Positions 7,699 through 34,671 of a stretch of DNA of 41,396 nt are shown piece by piece (the first letter of the stretch is position 1; the number at the start of each line of letters is the position of its first letter). This stretch comes from Candidatus Poribacteria bacterium (GTDB taxonomy: Bacteria > Poribacteria > WGA-4E > JAJDTR01): positions 1 through 41,396 of the forward strand of contig JAPPIK010000019.1 in NCBI GenBank assembly GCA_028820655.1, given 5' to 3'. The position numbers were made by a program, and so were the translations under genes. Under the pieces are notes generated by a model. That model was not told where the DNA came from and searched no databases. It was given only the letters and a program-made list of their open reading frames with translations.

Positions 7699-8763
7699 TC
7701 AGCTATCCATCCCCTCCGCCATGGCGTCGATCTCTTCCAGCTTTAACCGGACGCTCACCACAGACTGTTTCTCGGGACCGGGTCTGTATTTGACGTACGT
7801 AGTTACAACGAGCGTGTCGTCTGGGAGAAGCTCCACACCGGGGTAGCCGGTGTCATGCATTTTCACGGTGTCGTAGCTGTGAAGCAGTTTGAGACGATAC
7901 TGCCCTGCGCGGCAGTTGCGAATATCGTCGTAGGTTCCCACCCACGCCACGAAGTGCCCCCAGGTCGGGCTGTGCAGCGTCCTATCGCGGAAAGCCATGA
8001 GGATGCGTCCGTCCGAGGAGTAGCGCGGTTGGTGGCGGTTGCCGGTCATCGTACGGTCAAGCTCGACCGGATCGGTCCAAGTTTCGCCTTCGTCGGTGCT
8101 GAACACGGCAAGAGAGCGGCATTTCATGGTGCTGCTGACGCGCAGCACACAGGCGATTTCCTTCCCGTCGGGGGAACGGATAAACGCCGGCTCGCACGGT
8201 CTTGAATCGGGAAACTTCCCTCCGCTCTCAACCAGAACCCGCTCGGGCGACCACGTCAAGCCGCCGTCTTCGGAGAAGCTGATAAGCGTCGATGGCTTGC
8301 GGCTCCATCCGCCCATCAAGCGGTTCCCGGTGATTTCGATAATGGTGGTGAAAGGCATCGCGGTTTTCAGTCCGTTCTCCTCGAACGGCGTCCAGGTCTC
8401 ACCGCGGTCAAGCGACACCGATTGGCGCATCTTTCCCAAACCCTCAAATACAAACAGCCGTTCCACGCCGTCCGGTCCGACAAATCGGAATATGGCAGGG
8501 CAGTTGGTAGCCGTCTTCCAGTTCTCCGGGACGGGCAATGGATCCGACCAGGTCAGACCGGCATCGTCGCTGCGCTGGAGCACCGCCGAAGGTCCCCCGT
8601 GCCCCAACGGATAGACGCAGAACATCGTTTTTTGGTCCGGCATCAGTAGCGTGGTGGGGTGTCCCTTGTAGCTTTCCGGTGTGCCTTGGGCGATGATCAC
8701 GTGGCGGTGCGTCTCGTCGCACAGGTCGATCATCGGGATATTAAAAGGTATGGATTCTGGCAT
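7699..8763 (-). CDS. sialidase-like six-bladed beta-propeller (BNR/Asp-box repeats), copy 1
   Basis: 354 residues. Four Asp boxes of the form S-x-D-x-G-x-T-W are visible: SDDAGLTW (65-72), SLDRGETW (117-124), SEDGGLTW (164-171) and STDEGETW (222-229), which define the exo-alpha-sialidase fold. I see no signal peptide and no RIP motif, so true sialidase activity is uncertain; many such proteins in environmental bacteria act on other glycans or are unassigned. Late conserved residues include QPRYSSDGR (245-253) and GYPGVELL (306-313). It is a recent duplicate of 9378-10442. The two proteins differ at only about a dozen positions, nearly all in the last third. Confidence 0.85.
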   Translation of the reverse strand: MPESIPFNIPMIDLCDETHRHVIIAQGTPESYKGHPTTLLMPDQKTMFCVYPLGHGGPSAVLQRSDDAGLTWSDPLPVPENWKTATNCPAIFRFVGPDGVERLFVFEGLGKMRQSVSLDRGETWTPFEENGLKTAMPFTTIIEITGNRLMGGWSRKPSTLISFSEDGGLTWSPERVLVESGGKFPDSRPCEPAFIRSPDGKEIACVLRVSSTMKCRSLAVFSTDEGETWTDPVELDRTMTGNRHQPRYSSDGRILMAFRDRTLHSPTWGHFVAWVGTYDDIRNCRAGQYRLKLLHSYDTVKMHDTGYPGVELLPDDTLVVTTYVKYRPGPEKQSVVSVRLKLEEIDAMAEGMDS

Positions 8764-9377: not shown

Positions 9378-10442
9378 TTAATTGCCCATGCTTTCCGCCA
9401 TGGCGTCGATCTCTTCCAGTTTTAAGCGTACGCTTACCACAGACTGTTTCTCGGGGCCGGGTCTGTATTTGACATAGGTCGTCACGACAAGCGTGTCGTC
9501 GGGCAGCAGTTCCACACCGGGGTAGCCGGTGTCGTGCTTTTTATCCGTGGCGTAGCTGTGCAGCAGCTTGAGGCGATACTGCCCTGCGCGGCAGTTGCGA
9601 ATATCGTCGTAGGTTCCCACCCATGCCACGAAGTGCCCCCAGGTCGGGCTGTGCAGCGTCCTATCGCGGAATGCCATCAGGATGCGTCCGTCCGAGGAGT
9701 AGCGCGGTTGGTGGCGGTCGCCGGTCATTGTGCGGTCAAGTTCCACCGGATCGGTCCAGGTTTCTCCTTCGTCGGTGCTGAACATGACGAGAGAGCGGCA
9801 TTTCATGGTGCTGCTGACGCGCAGCACACAGGCAATTTCCTTCCCGTCGGGGGAACGGATAAACGCCGGCTCGCACGGTCTTGAATCGGGAAACTTCCCT
9901 CCGCTCTCAACCAGAACCCGCTCGGGCGACCACGTCAAGCCGCCGTCTTCGGAGAAGCTGATAAGCGTCGATGGCTTGCGGCTCCATCCGCCCATCAAGC
10001 GGTTCCCGGTGATTTCGATAATGGTGGTGAAAGGCATCGCGGTTTTCAGTCCGTTCTCCTCGAACGGCGTCCAGGTCTCACCGCGGTCAAGCGACACCGA
10101 TTGGCGCATCTTTCCCAAACCCTCAAATACAAACAGCCGTTCCACGCCGTCCGGTCCGACAAATCGGAATATGGCAGGGCAGTTGGTAGCCGTCTTCCAG
10201 TTCTCCGGGACGGGCAATGGATCCGACCAGGTCAGACCGGCATCGTCGCTGCGCTGGAGCACCGCCGAAGGTCCCCCGTGCCCCAACGGATAGACGCAGA
10301 ACATCGTTTTTTGGTCCGGCATCAGTAGCGTGGTGGGGTGTCCCTTGTAGCTTTCCGGTGTGCCTTGGGCGATGATCACGTGGCGGTGCGTCTCGTCGCA
10401 CAGGTCGATCATCGGGATATTAAAAGGTATGGATTCTGACAT
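9378..10442 (-). CDS. sialidase-like six-bladed beta-propeller (BNR/Asp-box repeats), copy 2
   Basis: 354 residues, near-identical to 7699-8763, with the same four Asp boxes at 65-72, 117-124, 164-171 and 222-229. Differences include S2 for P2, LVMF for LAVF at 218-221, D242 for N242, YATDKK for YDTVKM around 297-302 and a different last four residues. Between 9835 and 10438 the DNA is identical to 8156-8759, silent positions included, whereas the rest of the gene carries scattered changes. This is the pattern left by gene conversion or by a very recent partial exchange. Function as for copy 1: sialidase fold, substrate unproven. Confidence 0.85.
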   Translation of the reverse strand: MSESIPFNIPMIDLCDETHRHVIIAQGTPESYKGHPTTLLMPDQKTMFCVYPLGHGGPSAVLQRSDDAGLTWSDPLPVPENWKTATNCPAIFRFVGPDGVERLFVFEGLGKMRQSVSLDRGETWTPFEENGLKTAMPFTTIIEITGNRLMGGWSRKPSTLISFSEDGGLTWSPERVLVESGGKFPDSRPCEPAFIRSPDGKEIACVLRVSSTMKCRSLVMFSTDEGETWTDPVELDRTMTGDRHQPRYSSDGRILMAFRDRTLHSPTWGHFVAWVGTYDDIRNCRAGQYRLKLLHSYATDKKHDTGYPGVELLPDDTLVVTTYVKYRPGPEKQSVVSVRLKLEEIDAMAESMGN

Positions 10443-12519: not shown

Positions 12520-13509
12520 ATGAAAATCAGGTTTGCACAGTACGGCATTTCGCACGACCACGCCAGCGGCAAGGCGAAGACGCTGAAAGCGAACGACGAT
12601 GTCGATTTTGTTGGCGTGTATGAACCGTCGGCGGAGGTTCGCGAAACGCTCGGCGGCAATGAAGCGTATGAGGGCGTTCATTGGCTCTCGTCCGCGGAGG
12701 AGATACTGGAAGATGAGACCATCGCCGGTGTCGCGGTGCAGGGGCACGTGTCGCGAAATCTCGAATATGCGCGGGCGGCGGTTGAGCGCGGAAAGCATGT
12801 CTGGCTCGATAAACCGGCGGGCGACGATTTGGAGACGTTCCGGGCGGTGCTGGACATTGCACGCGAGAAGGGGCTGTGCGTGCAACTCGGGTATATGTTC
12901 CGTTACAGCCCGGGATTTCAGTTCGTTCTCGATTGGGCGAACTCCGGGAGACTAGGAGACATATTCTCGATTCGCGGACGCATCTCGACCCGGCGCTCTG
13001 ACGCAGCCTCGTGGGAGCGATGGGATTCCCGCGGCGAACGCGAAGGCGGCATCATGTTCATTCTCGCCTGCCACCTTATCGACATCATCGTTGCCATCCT
13101 CGGGCGTCCCGAGCGCGCGGCATTCTTCTCGCAGAACCTGGACAACACCTTCCCGTGGTTCCAAGATAACACGGCGTCGGTTCTCGAATATCCGGACGCC
13201 ATGGTCACCCTCGAGTCGACCGCGTCCGAAGTATCGTCGGGTGCGACAAGACGCTTGGAGGTATACGGAACCCGAGGCAGCGTGATTCTCGAACCGCTGG
13301 AACCGCCGGCGTTGCGACTGTGCCTTGATGAGGACAGGGACGGCTTTGTAAAGGGGTGGCAGCGGGTGGAGGTGGAGCACCGGCCTCGCTACATCGACAG
13401 TCTACGCGCGCTGGTGGCGGACATTCGCGGCGAGAAAGCGCCGGACCGTTCGCTCGACCATGAATTCACGGTGCAGGAAACGGTGCTCCGTGCCGTGGGG
13501 TTGTTATAA
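12520..13509 (+). CDS. Gfo/Idh/MocA-family oxidoreductase, copy 1
   Basis: 329 residues. NAD(P)-dependent sugar or polyol dehydrogenase family. The Rossmann start IRFAQYGISHDHASGKA (3-19) replaces the usual GxGxxG with a His-rich turn (H12, H14), seen in all three copies. Other landmarks are YEPSAEVRE (34-42), the DKPAGDD motif (97-103, the family EKP) and EGGIMFILACHLIDI (175-189), with H185 as the likely catalytic His. The family's usual Asp before it is not obvious. TGGAGG lies about 10 nt before the ATG. First of three tandem paralogues, each followed by a family B composite repeat. Likely role: oxidation or epimerisation of a sugar or sugar acid released by the neighbouring hydrolases; this is inference. 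Confidence 0.85.
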   Translation: MKIRFAQYGISHDHASGKAKTLKANDDVDFVGVYEPSAEVRETLGGNEAYEGVHWLSSAEEILEDETIAGVAVQGHVSRNLEYARAAVERGKHVWLDKPAGDDLETFRAVLDIAREKGLCVQLGYMFRYSPGFQFVLDWANSGRLGDIFSIRGRISTRRSDAASWERWDSRGEREGGIMFILACHLIDIIVAILGRPERAAFFSQNLDNTFPWFQDNTASVLEYPDAMVTLESTASEVSSGATRRLEVYGTRGSVILEPLEPPALRLCLDEDRDGFVKGWQRVEVEHRPRYIDSLRALVADIRGEKAPDRSLDHEFTVQETVLRAVGLL

Positions 13510-13997: not shown

Positions 13998-14987
13998 ATG
14001 AATATTAGGTTTGCGCAGTACGGTATCGCGCACGGCCACGCCAGCGGTAAGGCGAAAGTGATGAAGGCGGGCGACGAGGTTGATTTCGCCGGTGTCTACG
14101 AACCTTCCCCGGAAATTCGCGAAGCGTTCGGCTCACACGAGGCGTATGAGGGGGTTCACTGGTTCTCATCCGCGGGGGAGATGTTGGAGGACGAGAGCAT
14201 TGCGGGAATCGCGGTGCAGGGGCGGGTATCGCATAACCTGGACTTTGCACGGGCGGCGCTTGAGCACGGAAAGCACGTCTGGCTTGACAAGCCGGCGGGC
14301 GATGATTTGGAGACGTTCCGGGGAATACTGGACATTGCACGCGAGAAGGGGCTGTGCGTCCAACTCGGCTACATGTTCCGCTACAACGCGGGATTTCAAT
14401 TTGTCCTCGATTGGGCAAAGTCCGGAAAACTGGGAAAGATATTCTCCGTCCGCGGCCGCATCTCGACGGATCGCTCGGACGAAGCCTCGTGGAAGCAATG
14501 GGATTCCCGCGGCGAACACGAGGGCGGCATCATGTTTATTCTAGGGTGCCACCTCATCGAAATCGTCGTCACGCTGATGGGACGCCCCGAGCGTGTGACT
14601 TCGTTCTCTCAGAACTTGGACCATACTTTCCCTTGGTTCCAAGATAACACCGCGTGTGTTTTCGAATATCCGGGCGCGATGGCCACCCTGGAGTCGACCG
14701 CGTCGGAGGTGTCGTCGGGTGCATCGAGACGATTCGAAGTCTACGGGACGCGCGGCAGCGCGATTCTCGAACCGCTGGAACCGCCGGAGTTGCGGCTGTG
14801 CCTTGACGAGGACCGTGACGGCTATGTCAAGGGCTGGCAGCGGGTGGAGGTGGAGAACCGGCCGCGTTACGTCGAAAGTCTTCGAGCGCTTGCGGCGGAC
14901 ATCCGCGGTGAGAAATCGCCGGACCGTTCGCTCGACCATGAATTTACGGTGCAGGAGACCGTGCTGCGCGCCGTCGGGTTGTTATAG
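13998..14987 (+). CDS. Gfo/Idh/MocA-family oxidoreductase, copy 2
   Basis: 329 residues, collinear with copies 1 and 3 without gaps. Same landmarks: RFAQYGIAHGHASGKA (4-19), YEPSPEIRE (34-42), DKPAGDD (97-103), EGGIMFILGCHLIEI (175-189) and the conserved tail DIRGEKSPDRSLDHEFTVQE. The turn HGH (12-14) differs from HDH in the other copies. GGAGA lies about 12 nt before the ATG. Most differences from copy 1 are conservative, so the duplication is older than that of the sialidase-like genes. No frameshift or lesion; all three copies look functional, which argues for dosage or divergent substrate ranges. Confidence 0.85.
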   Translation: MNIRFAQYGIAHGHASGKAKVMKAGDEVDFAGVYEPSPEIREAFGSHEAYEGVHWFSSAGEMLEDESIAGIAVQGRVSHNLDFARAALEHGKHVWLDKPAGDDLETFRGILDIAREKGLCVQLGYMFRYNAGFQFVLDWAKSGKLGKIFSVRGRISTDRSDEASWKQWDSRGEHEGGIMFILGCHLIEIVVTLMGRPERVTSFSQNLDHTFPWFQDNTACVFEYPGAMATLESTASEVSSGASRRFEVYGTRGSAILEPLEPPELRLCLDEDRDGYVKGWQRVEVENRPRYVESLRALAADIRGEKSPDRSLDHEFTVQETVLRAVGLL

Positions 14988-15385: not shown

Positions 15386-16375
15386 ATGAAACTGAGGTTC
15401 GCGCAATTCGGCATCTCGCATGACCACGCCCCAAGCAAGGCACGCACATTGAAATCAAACGAGGATGTGGATTTTGTCGGCATCTATGAACCGTCATCCG
15501 AAGTGCGCGCGACCCTCGGCGCCAACGATGCGTTTGAGGGCGTTCAATGGCTGCCGTCCGCGGAGGAGGTGTTGGAAGACGAAACCGTTGTGGGGATCGC
15601 GGCGCAGGGACGGGTATCGGAAAACCTCGACTTCGCGCGGGCGGCGGTGGAGCACGGCAAGCACGTCTGGCTCGACAAACCGGCGGGCGACGATTTGGAG
15701 GCGTTCCGGGCGGTGCTGGACATCGCACGCGAGAAGGGGCTGTGCGTCCAACTCGGTTATATGTTTCGTTACAACGCGGGTTTCCAGTTTGTGCTTGATT
15801 GGGCGAATTCCGGGAAACTGGGCGACATATTCTCGGTTCGTGGACGCATCTCCACGCGCCCTTCCGATGAATCTCTGTGGGCGCGGTGGGATTCGCGAGG
15901 CGAACACGAAGGCGGCATCATGTTCATTCTCGCACCGCATCTTATCGACATTATCGTCGCGCTGCTTGGGCGCCCCGACCGCGTGACATCGTTCTCGCAG
16001 AACTTGGACGGCGCCTTCCCTTGGGCGCAAGATAACACCGCCGCCGTCTTTGAATATCCGGACGCAATGGCGACCATCGAATCTACCGCGGCGGAGGTGT
16101 CGTCGGGAGAATCGAGACGGTTGGAGGTTTACGGGACTCGCGGCAGCGCGATACTTGAACCGTTGAGTCCACCTGCGCTGCGGTTGTGCCTTGATGAAGA
16201 TAGGGATGGTTATGCCCAAGGTTGGCAACGTGTAGAAATCGATGAGTGGCCGGCTCATGTCGGCGATCTGGAGGCGCTTGCGGCGGACATCCGCGGCGAG
16301 AAATCGCCCGACCGTTCACTCGACCACGAATTTATCGCGCAGGAAACGATCCTCCGCGCCGCCGGACTGCTATAG
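15386..16375 (+). CDS. Gfo/Idh/MocA-family oxidoreductase, copy 3
   Basis: 329 residues, collinear with the two upstream paralogues. Landmarks: RFAQFGISHDHAPSKA (4-19), YEPSSEVRA (34-42), DKPAGDD (97-103), EGGIMFILAPHLIDI (175-189). Here Pro precedes the likely catalytic H185, where the other copies have Cys. The start is supported by TGGAGG about 11 nt before the ATG, the same leader arrangement (CCATGGAGGC) as copy 1. Followed after 240 bp by the LamG-like gene on the same strand; the intervening family B hairpin may separate the transcripts. Confidence 0.85.
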   Translation: MKLRFAQFGISHDHAPSKARTLKSNEDVDFVGIYEPSSEVRATLGANDAFEGVQWLPSAEEVLEDETVVGIAAQGRVSENLDFARAAVEHGKHVWLDKPAGDDLEAFRAVLDIAREKGLCVQLGYMFRYNAGFQFVLDWANSGKLGDIFSVRGRISTRPSDESLWARWDSRGEHEGGIMFILAPHLIDIIVALLGRPDRVTSFSQNLDGAFPWAQDNTAAVFEYPDAMATIESTAAEVSSGESRRLEVYGTRGSAILEPLSPPALRLCLDEDRDGYAQGWQRVEIDEWPAHVGDLEALAADIRGEKSPDRSLDHEFIAQETILRAAGLL

Positions 16376-24380: not shown

Positions 24381-24869
24381 ATGAAGCGATTGAACAGGAA
24401 TTTAACCGTCCTGATTGCCGGTATTTTTCTCTGTCTGCTGCCGCTGAGCCGGATTCTCGGGTTTGCGGCGGAACCGGAACGTATTCAGCCGCCGGAACTC
24501 AAGCGCTTGCTTGATAGCGGTGCGAAGGTTGTCGTGGTGGATGTTCGCAGCGAACGGGAATTCCGAGAGGCGCATATTCCGGACGCGCTTTCCATTCCAC
24601 TGGCACAGCTAGAGATGCGGCATACCGAACTCCCCAAAGAGGGGCTGATCGCATTCTACTGAAGCTGACCTGCGGAAGCAACAAGTGCCCGGGCGGCACG
24701 ACTTTTACTGAACGAGTTCGGCTATGCGCATGAGCGCTTAAGAGTGTTGGAAGGGGGAATCGGGGCATGGAGGGAAGCCGGTTATCCACTTGAGAAAACG
24801 GTTGCGGTGGACGCCAAAGGCAAGCGCTTTACGCAATGGGGGCGGATCAAGATGGGAGCGTGGCGGTGA
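24381..24869 (+). CDS. exported rhodanese-domain selenoprotein with two in-frame UGA codons (U94-S-U96)
   Basis: 162 residues if both UGA codons (24660-24662, 24666-24668) are read as selenocysteine. The start at 24381 has GAGGAG 8 nt upstream; residues 1-29 are a signal peptide (hydrophobic LTVLIAGIFLCLLPL). Rhodanese domain at about 35-137: VVVDVRSEREFREAHIPDAL before the active site and EATSARAARLLLNEFGY, VLEGGIGAWREAGYP after it. Ordinary members of this branch have YCSCPxEATSA at the active site; here both Cys are UGA and everything else is intact and in frame to the stop at 24867-24869. A hairpin GTGCC-CGGGC-GGCAC (24685-24699) starts 16 nt after the second UGA, with a G in the first two loop bases, as in bacterial SECIS elements. 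Alternative: a pseudogene stopped twice. Proposed role: periplasmic sulfur or selenium transfer or redox chemistry. Confidence 0.75.
24685..24699 (+). promoter_or_regulatory. candidate bacterial SECIS hairpin
   Basis: 5-bp perfect stem GTGCC/GGCAC with loop CGGGC. The loop begins 21 nt after UGA 2 and 27 nt after UGA 1, within the usual 16-37 nt range. It lies inside the coding sequence, as expected for bacteria. Confidence 0.55.
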
Positions 24870-24918
24870 CGCTAGACGGAGCCAATCGTACAATAACGGC
24901 ATCGTTTCAAAGTAGTAG

Positions 24919-29232: not shown

Positions 29233-30375
29233 ATGTCTACACTTGACTGGATTACCGTAAAGGGATTTAAGAGCATCAAATCTATTGAGGAGTTGGAACT
29301 CCGTCCAATCAATGTCCTAATTGGATCGAACGGTGCCGGAAAGTCAAACTTCATGGAGGTTTTTTCGCTCCTTAACACGATGCGCCTAGGGGGCCTAAGG
29401 GATTACGTCATGAGGTCCGGCGGCGCGGACAGAATACTTCACTTCGGTTCAAAGACAACTCAGCAGCTAAGTATTGAAATTGGTTTCGAGAATGGAAAAA
29501 GAAAGTACAATATAGATTTGGCTCCGAATGATGCCGATGGTATGTTTCCGTCGAATGAAAACGTCTATACTTCGGTCAAACAAGAGACGATTCCCGATGA
29601 CGCCGTTTCTACGCTTTATGCGCTCCTCGGAAGGGATAGCGAAGCGGGAATTAGCAACACAAAGCAAAAATCTCGCGCAATTTCTTACGTTCGGGAACAT
29701 CTTTTTCACTGGCGATTGTACCAATTCCACGATACGAGTTCATCCTCGCCCATTAAGAAAACCGTACCCCTAAACGATAATCGCTACTTGCGGCATGACG
29801 GCTCGAATCTCGCCGCCTTCCTGTACTACCTGCGCGAAAAACATGGACGCTCGTACGACATGATACGCCGCACGGTACGGCTCGTTGCGCCATTTTTCGA
29901 CGACTTTTTCCTTGAACCGCTTGCGCTAAACGAAGATACGATTCGGCTCGAATGGCGGCATCAGGGTTCAGACGACTATTTTGATGTGTCGTCTCTCTCT
30001 GACGGCACTTTGCGTTTCATCGCTTTGGCAACACTGCTGCTGCAACCGACGGAACTGCGCCCCTCGGTGATTCTGTTGGACGAGCCGGAACTGGGATTGC
30101 ACCCCGCCGCGATCGCGATTCTTTCCTTTCTCATTAAGCAAGCCTCTGTGGAAACTCAGATTGTCGTTGCCACTCAATCTTCCTTGCTTTTGGATAATTT
30201 CAACCCCGAAGACGTGCTCGTCGCCGAACGTGTGGAGGGAGCTACCCAATTCACAAGACTGGAAGGAGAAAAACTGAAAATCTGGCTTGAGGATTATAGC
30301 CTCGGTCAACTCTGGGAGAAGAATGAACTCGGTGGTCGGCCGGCTCCGGAGTTCACAGATCGGGAGTCCACGTAA
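29233..30375 (+). CDS. AAA-type (SMC/ABC-like, COG4637) ATPase of an ATPase/DUF4276 pair
   Basis: 380 residues. An ABC/SMC-type nucleotide-binding core: Walker A GSNGAGKSN (31-39), signature-like SLSDGTLRF (254-262), Walker B VILLDEPELGLHP (279-291), and a switch loop VVATQSSLLL (311-320) in which Gln315 takes the usual His position. The N-terminal ITVKGFKSIKSIEELELRPI is typical of the OLD/RecF-like AAA_21 group. The stop overlaps the next start as TAATG, so the two are translationally coupled. Pairs of this ATPase with a DUF4276 protein are recurrent in bacteria and resemble the two-gene layout of AbiL and PARIS. Likely role: phage-sensing ATPase that controls its partner. Cytoplasmic. No strong ribosome site; start provisional. 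Confidence 0.85.
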   Translation: MSTLDWITVKGFKSIKSIEELELRPINVLIGSNGAGKSNFMEVFSLLNTMRLGGLRDYVMRSGGADRILHFGSKTTQQLSIEIGFENGKRKYNIDLAPNDADGMFPSNENVYTSVKQETIPDDAVSTLYALLGRDSEAGISNTKQKSRAISYVREHLFHWRLYQFHDTSSSSPIKKTVPLNDNRYLRHDGSNLAAFLYYLREKHGRSYDMIRRTVRLVAPFFDDFFLEPLALNEDTIRLEWRHQGSDDYFDVSSLSDGTLRFIALATLLLQPTELRPSVILLDEPELGLHPAAIAILSFLIKQASVETQIVVATQSSLLLDNFNPEDVLVAERVEGATQFTRLEGEKLKIWLEDYSLGQLWEKNELGGRPAPEFTDREST

Positions 30376-31079
30376 TGGCGAGACTGCTCGTTCATGTGGA
30401 GGGCCAAACTGAGGAATATTTCGTCAATAGAATCCTTGAAACTCATTTACGTACTCACGGATTCTCAAACGTCAGTGCACGCTTAATGGGAAAGCCACGT
30501 CAACGGAGCCAGCGCGGAGGGGTCCGGGCGTGGATTACAGTACGTAAGGACATAACGAATCATTTAAAGCAAGACCGAGGGTGCATTGCCACCACTATGG
30601 TGGATTACTACGGAATGCCACAAACCGGTTCAAGGGCATGGCCCGGACGCGCTGAAGCCAGTAACTTCGCGTTTCCGAAAAATGCATGCACGGTTGAAAA
30701 CGCACTCGCGTTGAATGTCTGCGAACAAATGGGGACAAACTTTAACCCGATTCGATTCGTTCCTCATGTAATGATGCATGAGTTTGAAGCGATGCTTTTT
30801 AGCGATTGTGGCAAGTTCGCAGAAGGTATCGGGCAGCCTGAACTGGCACCGAAGTTTCAAGCCATCCGTGACAAATTTGCAACCCCGGAAGAAATTGATG
30901 ACTCGCCCGAAACGGCGCCATCCAAACGTATTGAATCGCTGGTTCCCGGATACCAAAAGCCATCATTGGGGATTTTAGCGGCGTTAGACATTGGTCTCGC
31001 GGCAATCCGGTCGGCGTGCCCACGTTTTTGCAGTTGGTTGGAAAAGTTGGAAGGTATACCTGCAAATCCTGATACGTAG
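30375..31079 (+). CDS. DUF4276-family protein, TOPRIM-like putative effector
   Basis: 234 residues. Starts one base before the ATPase stop ends (TAATG), with GGGAG upstream. The opening LLVHVEGQTEEYFVNRIL (4-21) carries the conserved Glu9, TTMVDYYGMP (73-82) the Asp77, and MMHEFEAMLFSD (133-144) the third conserved acidic block; this order matches the DUF4276 family and, more loosely, TOPRIM nucleases such as those in OLD, AbiL and PARIS effectors. That relationship is from memory of fold-level similarity, not something shown by the sequence alone. Likely role: nuclease or other effector released or activated by the neighbouring ATPase. Cytoplasmic. Confidence 0.8.
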   Translation: MARLLVHVEGQTEEYFVNRILETHLRTHGFSNVSARLMGKPRQRSQRGGVRAWITVRKDITNHLKQDRGCIATTMVDYYGMPQTGSRAWPGRAEASNFAFPKNACTVENALALNVCEQMGTNFNPIRFVPHVMMHEFEAMLFSDCGKFAEGIGQPELAPKFQAIRDKFATPEEIDDSPETAPSKRIESLVPGYQKPSLGILAALDIGLAAIRSACPRFCSWLEKLEGIPANPDT

Positions 31080-31182
31080 TTGGGACAGGACGGTATGAGA
31101 ACTACCACAATCAATAATGACCTTCCAATGCTTATAAAAAAGCGTTGCTGTTGAAGACTCGAATTGAAACAGGAGCATCACA

Positions 31183-32715
31183 ATGAGAGCACATGGGAAC
31201 ACCGAAACCACGGAGACACGAATTTCGACACTCCCAGATGTTCGGATTTCAGCGGAGAATTTTGGCCCTATCGTAAACGGCAGTATAGACCTGCGGCCGC
31301 TGACGGTGTTCGTTGGTCCTAGCAACACCGGAAAGACCTATCTCGCCACGCTCATCTACGCATTTCACAAGACTCTTCCCGATTTCTCACTGCTTCCAGT
31401 CATGGGTAAACACCTTCATCGTTTTGTGCAGGATTTGGGAGACACCAAAACGTCAACTAGAGATGAGCGCTCTTGGGAAGTGTTATTTCAAGATATTGTC
31501 GGAAAACTTCAGACTAAGGGGCGACGCTTCATGTTCACGGATTTGCCCAGTCCTGTGCGTGAGCGGTGGAAAATTGTTCTCAACGATAACCAGTTGCTGG
31601 GCAAGGAATTGGAAAACGAACTACAGCGCTGTTTTGGCCTTCGGTCCATTTCCGAGTTGGTGCGACTGTCAGGGAGTTCAGACAGCGCTGAGCTTTCATT
31701 GAATGTCAGTGACGAATGTCGGCCCCTTTGGAATGTCGATATAAAAGTCTCGACATCGGGCATTACTACGGAGGGACGTATTGAGGGCATGGTACTTTTC
31801 CCCGATGGCGGTGCCGTTGCTAACCGCTGGGGACACGGAAAATTTCGAGAACTGGCAAAAAAGACAGTTGGAGAATTCTTCGACGAATTCCTGTATTCCG
31901 CCGCTTGGAATGACAGACGAGGTGAATCGCATTACCTGCCGGCAGCCCGGAGCGGTGTTATGCTGAGCCATCGTGTCATTTCAAGTTCTTTGATGGCAAA
32001 CGCAACTCGTGCAGGGATGGATCCATTTCCGGAGATTCCGACGTTTTCAGGTATGGTAGCAGATTTCCTGCAACAACTTATCCTTTACGAAGAAGAACGC
32101 ACACCCGACAATCTCATGAAAAACTTTGCCGATGTGCTTGAGCGTAATGTTCTTGACGGAAAAATACGGGTCAACAGAGCCTCAGCGGGCGGATATCCGG
32201 ACTTCGTGTATCAGCCGCGAAAATCGAAGAAAACCATTCGCTTGGCTCGTGCGTCGTCCATGGTAACCGAACTTGCTCCTATCGTATTGTTTCTCCGGGG
32301 CGTCATTGCGCGCGGCGACACGCTCATCATTGACGAACCCGAGGCTCACCTGCACCCCGAGATGCAGGTCGAGTTCACACGCTTCCTTGCATCTGTCGTT
32401 CGTTCAGGCATTCGAATCATCCTGACAACACATAGCGAGTGGGTGCTAGAGGAACTCGCCAATTTGGTACAAGCTTCGGAACTTAGCAAATCCGAAAGGT
32501 TAGCAATCAACGGTAGCGACATCGCTCTCACTGAAAAGGAAGTTGGAGCGTGGCTGTTTAAACCCAAGAGACGACCTAAGGGTTCAGTCGTGGAGGAAAT
32601 CCCGCTGAATCGGGAATCGGGAACTTTTGCCGCCGGTTATGACAAGGTGGCTGTCGATGGTTATAACCGTTGGGCTGAGATGACGAGCCGCACGGCTAAA
32701 GACGAGGATAAATGA
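31183..32715 (+). CDS. second AAA-type ATPase (OLD/RecF-like) of the island
   Basis: 510 residues, with AGGAG about 8 nt before the ATG. Walker A FVGPSNTGKTYLA (43-55), Walker B LIIDEPEAHLHPEM (381-394) and a canonical switch His417 in ILTTHSEWVLEEL. Between them lies a 300-residue insertion that includes EFFDEFLYSAAW, probably the coiled-coil/arm region. It is not closely similar to the ATPase at 29233; the two belong to different branches. The stop overlaps the next gene as ATGA. Its membership in an anti-phage ATPase/nuclease pair is inferred from this coupling and from the nuclease-like partner. Confidence 0.85.
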   Translation: MRAHGNTETTETRISTLPDVRISAENFGPIVNGSIDLRPLTVFVGPSNTGKTYLATLIYAFHKTLPDFSLLPVMGKHLHRFVQDLGDTKTSTRDERSWEVLFQDIVGKLQTKGRRFMFTDLPSPVRERWKIVLNDNQLLGKELENELQRCFGLRSISELVRLSGSSDSAELSLNVSDECRPLWNVDIKVSTSGITTEGRIEGMVLFPDGGAVANRWGHGKFRELAKKTVGEFFDEFLYSAAWNDRRGESHYLPAARSGVMLSHRVISSSLMANATRAGMDPFPEIPTFSGMVADFLQQLILYEEERTPDNLMKNFADVLERNVLDGKIRVNRASAGGYPDFVYQPRKSKKTIRLARASSMVTELAPIVLFLRGVIARGDTLIIDEPEAHLHPEMQVEFTRFLASVVRSGIRIILTTHSEWVLEELANLVQASELSKSERLAINGSDIALTEKEVGAWLFKPKRRPKGSVVEEIPLNRESGTFAAGYDKVAVDGYNRWAEMTSRTAKDEDK

Positions 32716-33206
32716 GTAGCCTTGCAAATGCCGTCCGCACTAGAGTCTCGGAGGAGTGTCTAACGACAAGGTGCCAAAAAGAAGGGTGCAAAGTAAGTCT
32801 CCCAAGAATTGGAGGGTTTCCGGATAGACAGCGTCCATACGTCGTTATCGATATGGACCACTCCGAATCGCCTGCTTCGCAAGATGAGCAACGCTGCGAT
32901 TTCCTTTTCGTCGGGGAGTGCGAAAACCAAGGCTGGGTTGTGCCGTTGGAACTGAAGAGAGGTCAGCCAACCGCGAATGAGATTGTACACCAACTCCGGG
33001 CAGGCGCTTCAATCGCGGAGGACATTGTTCCTAGAAATGCGGAAGCTAAGTTCCGGCCGGTTGCAGCCTACGGCGGTGAACTCAAGCGGCATCAATTGAA
33101 ACTTTTCAGATACAAAGCGAACAGGATTGAATTTCGAGGTCAGCGTGAAGGTGTTCGCCTAATCCGCTGCGGAGTGAGCCTAAAACATGCGCTTAAGTCA
33201 CCATAA
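32712..33206 (+). CDS. small PD-(D/E)xK-like putative nuclease coupled to the ATPase
   Basis: 164 residues, starting inside the ATPase stop (ATGA overlap). The middle shows a restriction-endonuclease-fold pattern: a strand PYVVIDMD (42-49), then CDFLFVGE with Asp63, then WVVPLELKRG with Glu80-x-Lys82, followed by a helix EIVHQLRAGA with Gln94; the D-(16)-ExK spacing fits PD-(D/E)xK nucleases. The N-terminus has three Cys (C16, C21, C26) and two more follow (C62, C70), which might bind a metal. No family recognised by name. The alternative is a nuclease-fold protein without activity. Confidence 0.7.
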   Translation: MSSLANAVRTRVSEECLTTRCQKEGCKVSLPRIGGFPDRQRPYVVIDMDHSESPASQDEQRCDFLFVGECENQGWVVPLELKRGQPTANEIVHQLRAGASIAEDIVPRNAEAKFRPVAAYGGELKRHQLKLFRYKANRIEFRGQREGVRLIRCGVSLKHALKSP

Positions 33207-33276
33207 GTGCCGGTTTGAATGACGGCTATCAAAGGCATTTTTCGGCATCTGTAGATTCTTTTTGGAGTAAATCAGA

Positions 33277-34671
33277 GTGGGTAACAGACACCTTTTACTA
33301 GACACGCGCATCACGGAGAGGACGCAGAACGCGAAGCTGGCCGTCACGCCGGCGGAAAAGGATCCACGCAACCCTCTTTTTGGCGAGGACAAGCCGTGGG
33401 AGCAACGGTTCGACAATCTCTACCCGAATGTCATGTATGACCGGCAGGAAGCGCTGTACAAATGCTGGTACAGCCCCTTCATCTCCGATCTTCCCGCCAA
33501 GGGCATCGGTTTGGCGGAGCGGCAGAGGCGGGAGTATAACCCTCCGAAGGGCAGGGAGATGGGACTCTGCTACGCCACATCCGAGGACGGTGTTGTGTGG
33601 GACAAGCCGGAACTCGGGCTCGTCGAATTCGAGGGGAGCACGGAGAACAACCTCGTCATCCGCACCGTGCACGGCTCGGGCGTTCTGAAGGAGGATCGGG
33701 AGAACGATCCGGCGAAGCGCTACAAGATTCTCGCCTCGTGCGGGCGGAAGGGGTTAGGCGTCTCCTTCTCGCCGGACGGGGTCAGGTGGGAGCCGCCGAC
33801 GCTGTGTCCGACGATAAATCCCTATCGGGTCGACGGCACGCATTACAACGTCCTGTGGGTCGAGGAATTGGGCGAGTATGTCGGGTTCACGCGGATGCGC
33901 GACCCGTGTGGCGATGGACCCGACGAGGTGATGGAGCGCCACGGCGCTTGGCCGCCGCGGCAGGTGGGACGGACTACAAGCAAGGATTTTCTGAATTGGA
34001 CGCAAGCCACGGCGGTCATGCAGGGAGTGGACGAAAATCTGCAGATATACTCCATGCCCGTCTTCCGCCATGGGCACGTGTATCTCGGGCTGCCCGTCAT
34101 TCACAACCAACGGACGGATAGGGCGTGGACGGAGTTGGCGTGGAGCCACGACACGATTGACTGGCGTTTCGTTTGCCCGGGCTCGCCGCTCATACCGAAT
34201 AGCGACGAGGTGGGAAGCTACGACTGGGGATGCGCCTACTCGTCCGCCTACCCAATTATCCTCGGGGACGAGATTCGACTCTACTACGGCGCGAGCAACT
34301 GGACGCATTTCGGCTGGCGCGACGGATTTCTCTGCCTGGCGCGGCTGCGACCGGACGGGTTCGCGGGATACGAGCAGATCTCCGCCAAGATGCCCGCGGT
34401 GGTCACATGCAAGCCGATAGCAATCAAGGGAAGCGAGTTTCACCTGAGCGCCGATGTCTACGGCGTCGGCTCGGTGCAGGTGCGCCTGCTGAATAAAGCC
34501 GATGAAGGGGTGGTTGCCGAGAGTGAGCCGATAGAAGAGACGGTTACCGACGGCGTTGTCGCGTGGCTGGACGAGTTTTCACTCGGTTCGGTCAAAGACG
34601 AAAATCTACGAATTGAGTTCAGTATGAACGGCGCCAAATTGTATTCGTTCGGGTTTGATTTGAAACAGTGA
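33277..34671 (+). CDS. GH32/GH43-like beta-propeller protein 2
   Basis: 464 residues from a GTG start, with GGAG 10 nt upstream. Clear paralogue of the protein at 10684: NPLFGEDKPWEQRFDNLYPN and VMYDRQEALYKCWYSPF line up with its N-terminus, ATSEDGVVWDKPELGL and SPDGVRWEPP are blade motifs, and the C-terminal beta-rich domain ends MNGAKLYSFGFDLKQ. No signal peptide, so it is probably cytoplasmic or released by another route. It immediately follows the defence island but belongs with the metabolic genes by family. The catalytic triad cannot be assigned by eye, and glycan substrate is unknown. Confidence 0.75.
   Translation: MGNRHLLLDTRITERTQNAKLAVTPAEKDPRNPLFGEDKPWEQRFDNLYPNVMYDRQEALYKCWYSPFISDLPAKGIGLAERQRREYNPPKGREMGLCYATSEDGVVWDKPELGLVEFEGSTENNLVIRTVHGSGVLKEDRENDPAKRYKILASCGRKGLGVSFSPDGVRWEPPTLCPTINPYRVDGTHYNVLWVEELGEYVGFTRMRDPCGDGPDEVMERHGAWPPRQVGRTTSKDFLNWTQATAVMQGVDENLQIYSMPVFRHGHVYLGLPVIHNQRTDRAWTELAWSHDTIDWRFVCPGSPLIPNSDEVGSYDWGCAYSSAYPIILGDEIRLYYGASNWTHFGWRDGFLCLARLRPDGFAGYEQISAKMPAVVTCKPIAIKGSEFHLSADVYGVGSVQVRLLNKADEGVVAESEPIEETVTDGVVAWLDEFSLGSVKDENLRIEFSMNGAKLYSFGFDLKQ

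Follow-up and report, generated by a model that had tools for sequence, protein, structure and literature searches.

The window, that is the whole stretch of 41,396 nucleotides from Candidatus Poribacteria bacterium that was analysed (contig JAPPIK010000019.1), contains a rhodanese gene on the forward strand whose features are listed in Table 1. The gene begins with an ATG at position 24381, preceded by the sequence GAGGAG, and its frame contains three TGA codons and neither TAA nor TAG. The third TGA (24867-24869) is the terminal stop; the other two are codons 94 and 96, and the preliminary description, according to which these were the only internal stops in an otherwise intact rhodanese, was right on this point and on their coordinates. 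When both are read through, the product is 162 residues long and has a hydrophobic N-terminus and a single rhodanese domain. A Pfam profile search matched PF00581 to residues 37-132 (E 3e-15; 56.9 bits against a curated cut-off of 22.2). The predicted model of the protein has pLDDT values above 90 in the rhodanese domain, and its fold was matched by PDB rhodaneses with E-values from 8e-10 and a probability of 1.00, the nearest structures being BH2092, YgaP and the rhodanese domains of CoA-disulfide and persulfide reductases. The N-terminal hydrophobic segment, as seen in the sequence and in the model, suggests that the protein is probably exported.

Table 1. Features of the rhodanese gene, in window coordinates
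Feature	Position	Strand	Remarks
Rhodanese selenoprotein gene	24381-24869	+	162 codons and TGA stop; Sec predicted at codons 94 and 96
N-terminal hydrophobic segment	24381-24470	+	Helix 4-25 in the model, then FAAEPER; probable signal peptide or membrane anchor (sequence reading)
Rhodanese domain PF00581	24489-24776	+	Pfam match and fold matches to rhodanese structures
UGA codon 94	24660-24662	+	Canonical catalytic Cys position; orthologue alignment
UGA codon 96	24666-24668	+	TGA in 14/14 orthologues of the phylum
Predicted bacterial SECIS hairpin GUGCC-CGGGC-GGCAC	24685-24699	+	Loop G at position 2; comparative evidence and fold

Several other features of the window were recorded. Shortly 3' of the rhodanese gene an 18-bp direct repeat, GGAGCCAATCGTACAATA, is present at 24878 and 25094 (+). 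Two almost identical ORFs of 354 aa (7699-8763 and 9378-10442, minus strand) reflect a recent tandem duplication, and three tandem paralogous ORFs of 329 aa (12520-13509, 13998-14987 and 15386-16375, plus strand) encode proteins which we take to resemble Gfo/Idh-type oxidoreductases. The region 29233-33206 (+) contains an ATPase gene paired with a DUF4276 gene that match HEC-01A (4e-138) and HEC-01B (6e-69), respectively, followed by a second ATPase gene similar to PD-T4-4_A/PDC-M47A, whose small partner weakly resembles PDC-M47B; this region is a probable anti-phage defence island. A PHROGs search gave no match.

In the window's phylum, of which 85 genomes were searched, there were 14 orthologues, including the window's own. 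Codons 94-96 read TGA-AGC-TGA (U-x-U) in 10 of them and TGT-AGC-TGA (C-x-U) in the other four, without any other codon at position 94, and none of the 14 has Cys at codon 96. An exchange between Cys and UGA, envisaged earlier for both sites, hence recurs at codon 94 and, within the phylum, not at codon 96, and no close relative has TGC or TGT at both sites. In ordinary rhodaneses from the same genomes the residue aligned to codon 94 is the catalytic Cys, and in-frame UGA where homologues have Cys, a mark of bacterial selenoproteins, is thus seen in this gene. A scan of genome contigs with the single protein produced, besides distant or chance matches, one orthologue only, located on an uncultured Poribacteria chromosome (OY282444.1) and belonging to the 14. 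In one orthologue (L042, genome G005) the frame does not end after the rhodanese domain but reaches about 540 residues, forming a fusion with a C-terminal part.

Downstream of the UGAs, comparison of the window gene with that of its congener G013 gave a dN of 0.174 and a dS of 0.723, and the downstream dN/dS was about 0.15-0.37, also within other genera. Therefore, the C-terminal half is translated and useful, which requires that both UGAs are passed. Ordinary Cys rhodaneses are also present in the window's genome, a situation that would suit a decaying Cys rhodanese having acquired two nonsense changes, or a sequencing error. The orthologues already contradict this: identical TGAs recur across ten genomes from one phylum and four genes from two others, the downstream dN/dS is well under 1, and the hairpin described below covaries. 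We consider decay or error exceedingly improbable. The earlier argument against random decay thus holds, as the same codons are TGA/TGA or Cys/TGA in the 13 other orthologues and compensating changes preserve the hairpin.

Outside the phylum we searched 387 genomes with the NF041203 family model. This gave U-x-U members in genomes G116 and G156 (two copies in the latter), to which G387, of the same genus as G156, adds another, making four genes in two other phyla. Many C-x-U members were found, at loci L060-L063, L065, L068, L080, L092-L098 and L100, and C-x-C members in two genomes, G307 and G132. SelB above the cut-off was found in neither C-x-C genome. Among the tested genomes with a Sec form it was found in all except G156, which is 97% complete, yet it was present in the congener G387. 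On an unrooted tree of 35 sequences, in which several branches are open, the U-x-U distribution needs five changes, at least two of which are forced by well supported branches. Therefore, the first site underwent more than one exchange of Cys and Sec, in a direction that this unrooted tree with its open branches does not settle.

The genome holding the window (5.88 Mb, 95% complete) contains all four selenocysteine genes that the preliminary description had named as a check. On contig C51, selC (tRNA-Sec; 30802-30891, 76.6 bits against a gathering score of 47), selB (30933-32819) and selA (32936-34294) are clustered side by side, the latter two above their cut-offs. The selD gene lies on contig C22 (locus L118, around 1520-1550) and has an in-frame TGA within its N-terminal motif ECAGUASK, which is presumably the known Sec/Cys site of SelD. 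A second rhodanese of the same genome (contig C4, locus L006, 1465-2298, minus strand), of the two-domain mercaptopyruvate/thiosulfate sulfurtransferase type, carries one TGA, at the position of the active-site Cys (CYUQGG), and is a probable second Sec rhodanese. In the phylum as a whole, SelB above the cut-off was found in 76 of the 85 genomes; among those bearing an orthologue the sole exception was G023, which is 80% complete. The in-frame TGAs of selD and the second rhodanese could also be taken to mean that UGA is reassigned to an amino acid throughout the genome. These TGAs fall, however, on a known Sec site and on an active-site Cys position; moreover, the window gene and five relatives terminate in TGA, most matched genes are read without TGA, and tRNA-Sec, SelA and SelB are present. 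Genome-wide reassignment is contradicted by these observations, and the chance that it applies is minute.

The hairpin listed in Table 1 has a 5-bp stem, starts 16 nt past UGA96 and spans codons 102-107, where its consensus is GUGCC-NGKNN-GGCAC. The preliminary description had placed a hairpin with a G-containing loop at exactly this distance, and its reading as a SECIS is supported by covariation. Among 32 Sec-type sequences the stem pairs were kept in 158 of 160 cells (98.8%), and three of the five pairs displayed two-sided changes (GC/CG, UA/CG/GC and GC/AU). The covariation score was 0.412 versus 0.185 for shuffled data, and none of 500 shuffles matched either the observed paired fraction or the covariation score. 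Pairing was lost when the partner was slid by one to three columns, and no other of the 246 tested combinations of offset and loop size did better than that of the hairpin. All Sec-type sequences carry G as the second loop base, with G or U after it, and the position of the hairpin relative to UGA96 is kept in C-x-U members too. In the three sequences of Cys or Ser type the stem is incomplete. Where residues are conserved, the fraction of identical codons was 0.92 within the stem versus 0.50 upstream and downstream, as expected of overlapping selection on the RNA.

When the 56 nt that start with UGA94 were folded as a whole, another structure was preferred, which was no better than shuffles (z -0.62); only for the ribosome-free part, starting 11 nt after the second UGA, does the hairpin have the lowest energy (-7.8 kcal/mol). 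Therefore, we rested the case for a SECIS on covariation, which makes it comparative and not thermodynamic. The published bSECIS model specifies a stem of 4-16 bp, a loop of 3-9 nt with G in its first two positions and G or U next to it, a spacing of 16-37 nt between UGA and loop, and a minimum free energy of at most -7.5 kcal/mol (PMC13188914). The window hairpin, with its 5-bp stem, 5-nt loop, G at position 2 and -7.8 kcal/mol in the ribosome-free segment, agrees with this model, and it does so for both UGAs, as the loop lies 21 nt from UGA96 and 27 nt from UGA94, both inside the allowed spacing. Several relatives have weak stems of about -5 kcal/mol, short of the energy limit given in that review.

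Together these results make it very likely that selenocysteine is inserted at both codons 94 and 96, as judged from comparative sequence evidence. One downstream SECIS hairpin, within reach of both UGAs, would serve both codons, and SelB would deliver Sec-tRNA twice, at positions one codon apart. An alternative is that only UGA96 encodes Sec, as in the C-x-U family, and that UGA94 is a selenium-sensitive stop or is misread, for instance as Cys or Trp. This would account for the constancy of TGA at codon 96 across the phylum's 14 orthologues, as against a variable codon 94, and for the fixed place of the hairpin relative to UGA96 in C-x-U members as well. Yet the variation at codon 94 is limited to TGA or TGT, the pattern of a Sec/Cys exchange, U-x-U recurs in three phyla, the distance of TGA94 from this SECIS is also a permitted one, and synthesis of the remaining protein, which is under selection, requires that codon 94 is passed. 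We therefore regard decoding of UGA96 alone as improbable. We are also confident, if slightly less so than of Sec at both codons, of a wider picture: the gene belongs to a rhodanese lineage of at least three phyla in which a C-x-C redox pair gave rise to a U-x-U diselenide site, with one SECIS recoding two UGAs a codon apart, and in which Cys and Sec have repeatedly replaced each other at the first site.

The active-site loop of the protein reads U-S-U-P-A-E-A-T-S-A and lacks what we take to be the usual rhodanese pattern, Cys-Arg-x-Gly-x-Arg. Because of this, and because position 96 is an invariant Sec, we tentatively favour a two-residue redox centre engaged in persulfide or redox chemistry, in which residue 94 would be the sulfane-sulfur acceptor or attacking selenol and residue 96 the resolving residue; sequence and model leave this at somewhat under an even chance. 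In such a cycle Sec94, at the canonical position of the rhodanese nucleophile, would either accept sulfane sulfur or act as the nucleophile towards a di- or polysulfide. Resolution of the intermediate by Sec96 would leave an Se-Se pair, or an Se-S pair in C-x-U relatives, which a presumed partner would reduce. A protein with both Sec residues might equally not be a sulfurtransferase at all, its rhodanese fold acting as a pure thiol/selenol redox domain or as a selenium- or metal-binding domain. The atypical loop and the stricter conservation of Sec at position 96 would suit this as well, whereas the correspondence of position 94 to the catalytic Cys in ordinary rhodaneses, and a standard rhodanese fold close to the persulfide-handling domains of YgaP, CoADR-RHD and Npsr, argue against it. 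We consider plain selenol redox or metal/selenium binding about as likely as a sulfane-sulfur redox centre, and this alternative too falls a little below even odds.

The gene neighbourhood was inspected for candidate partners. In genus g5, and in that genus only, a Pyr_redox flavoprotein gene adjoins the rhodanese gene on its 3' side; no such neighbour is present in the window. This flavoprotein is a possible reductase in genus g5, although the compartments may not match: Pyr_redox-type flavoproteins are usually cytoplasmic, whereas the window protein looks exported. Sharing of neighbouring genes does not extend beyond a single genus or sister genomes. As the neighbourhood is therefore not general, we make no operon-based claim of function.

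Two UGAs one codon apart under a single hairpin constitute a natural test of SelB and SECIS function in consecutive decoding events, and raise the question why a cell pays for two recodings in one small protein. In addition, the occurrence of C-x-C, C-x-U and U-x-U at matched positions makes disulfide, selenenylsulfide and diselenide chemistry comparable within one fold.

A 2026 review lists rhodanese-like selenoprotein forms: forms 1, 2 and 4 with the motif UxxS/UxxG, form 3 (NF041203) with the motif CxU and one Sec, and form 5, TsoB, with UxxxxU (PMC13188914). UxU has no entry in that review, which is a single source and does not prove that the motif has gone unseen; in papers pairing Poribacteria with selenocysteine the latter is mentioned just once in each. 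Forms 1, 2, 4 and TsoB share with the window protein a rhodanese domain with active-site Sec, but differ in motif and spacing. TsoB also has two Sec residues, but it is fused to a DsbD-like part, and the window protein scored 28 bits against 805. The review further describes UxxU motifs in a Prx-like thiol:disulfide oxidoreductase and in mercuric-reductase-like proteins (PMC13188914). These are earlier examples of redox motifs with two Sec residues close together, in a different fold and with the UGAs nine nt apart from start to start versus six here. The rhodanese domains of YgaP and of the NADH-dependent persulfide reductase (5hbo, 3ntd) have the same fold as the window protein and perform sulfane-sulfur chemistry on the equivalent residue, which is Cys and not Sec; in Npsr the domain is fused to its own flavoprotein.

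The closest named family is NF041203 (rhodanese_LYCAU), which has the same domain and the same two positions with Sec at the second, was the best NCBIfam match for every orthologue tested, and has above-cut-off members (L060, L061 and L062) with a SECIS at the same position as in the window gene. It differs in its single Sec, as the window protein has a second one at the catalytic position. The window protein scored 74.4 bits and the orthologues 70-82, below the equivalog cut-off of 115; on these scores it is outside NF041203 as defined, yet in the same wider group. As the C-x-U family model misses the U-x-U branch, such genes are likely annotated as truncated at codon 93. The preliminary description was correct that single-Sec rhodanese-related proteins are known, as the C-x-U form attests (PMC13188914). 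Its claim of novelty stands in so far as a U-x-U rhodanese is absent from the table of the review, but was overstated, since other double-Sec motifs (UxxU and UxxxxU) are known. By comparison of sequences, the window gene encodes a conserved rhodanese with two strongly supported, predicted selenocysteines, which is a two-Sec variant of the known single-Sec C-x-U rhodanese.
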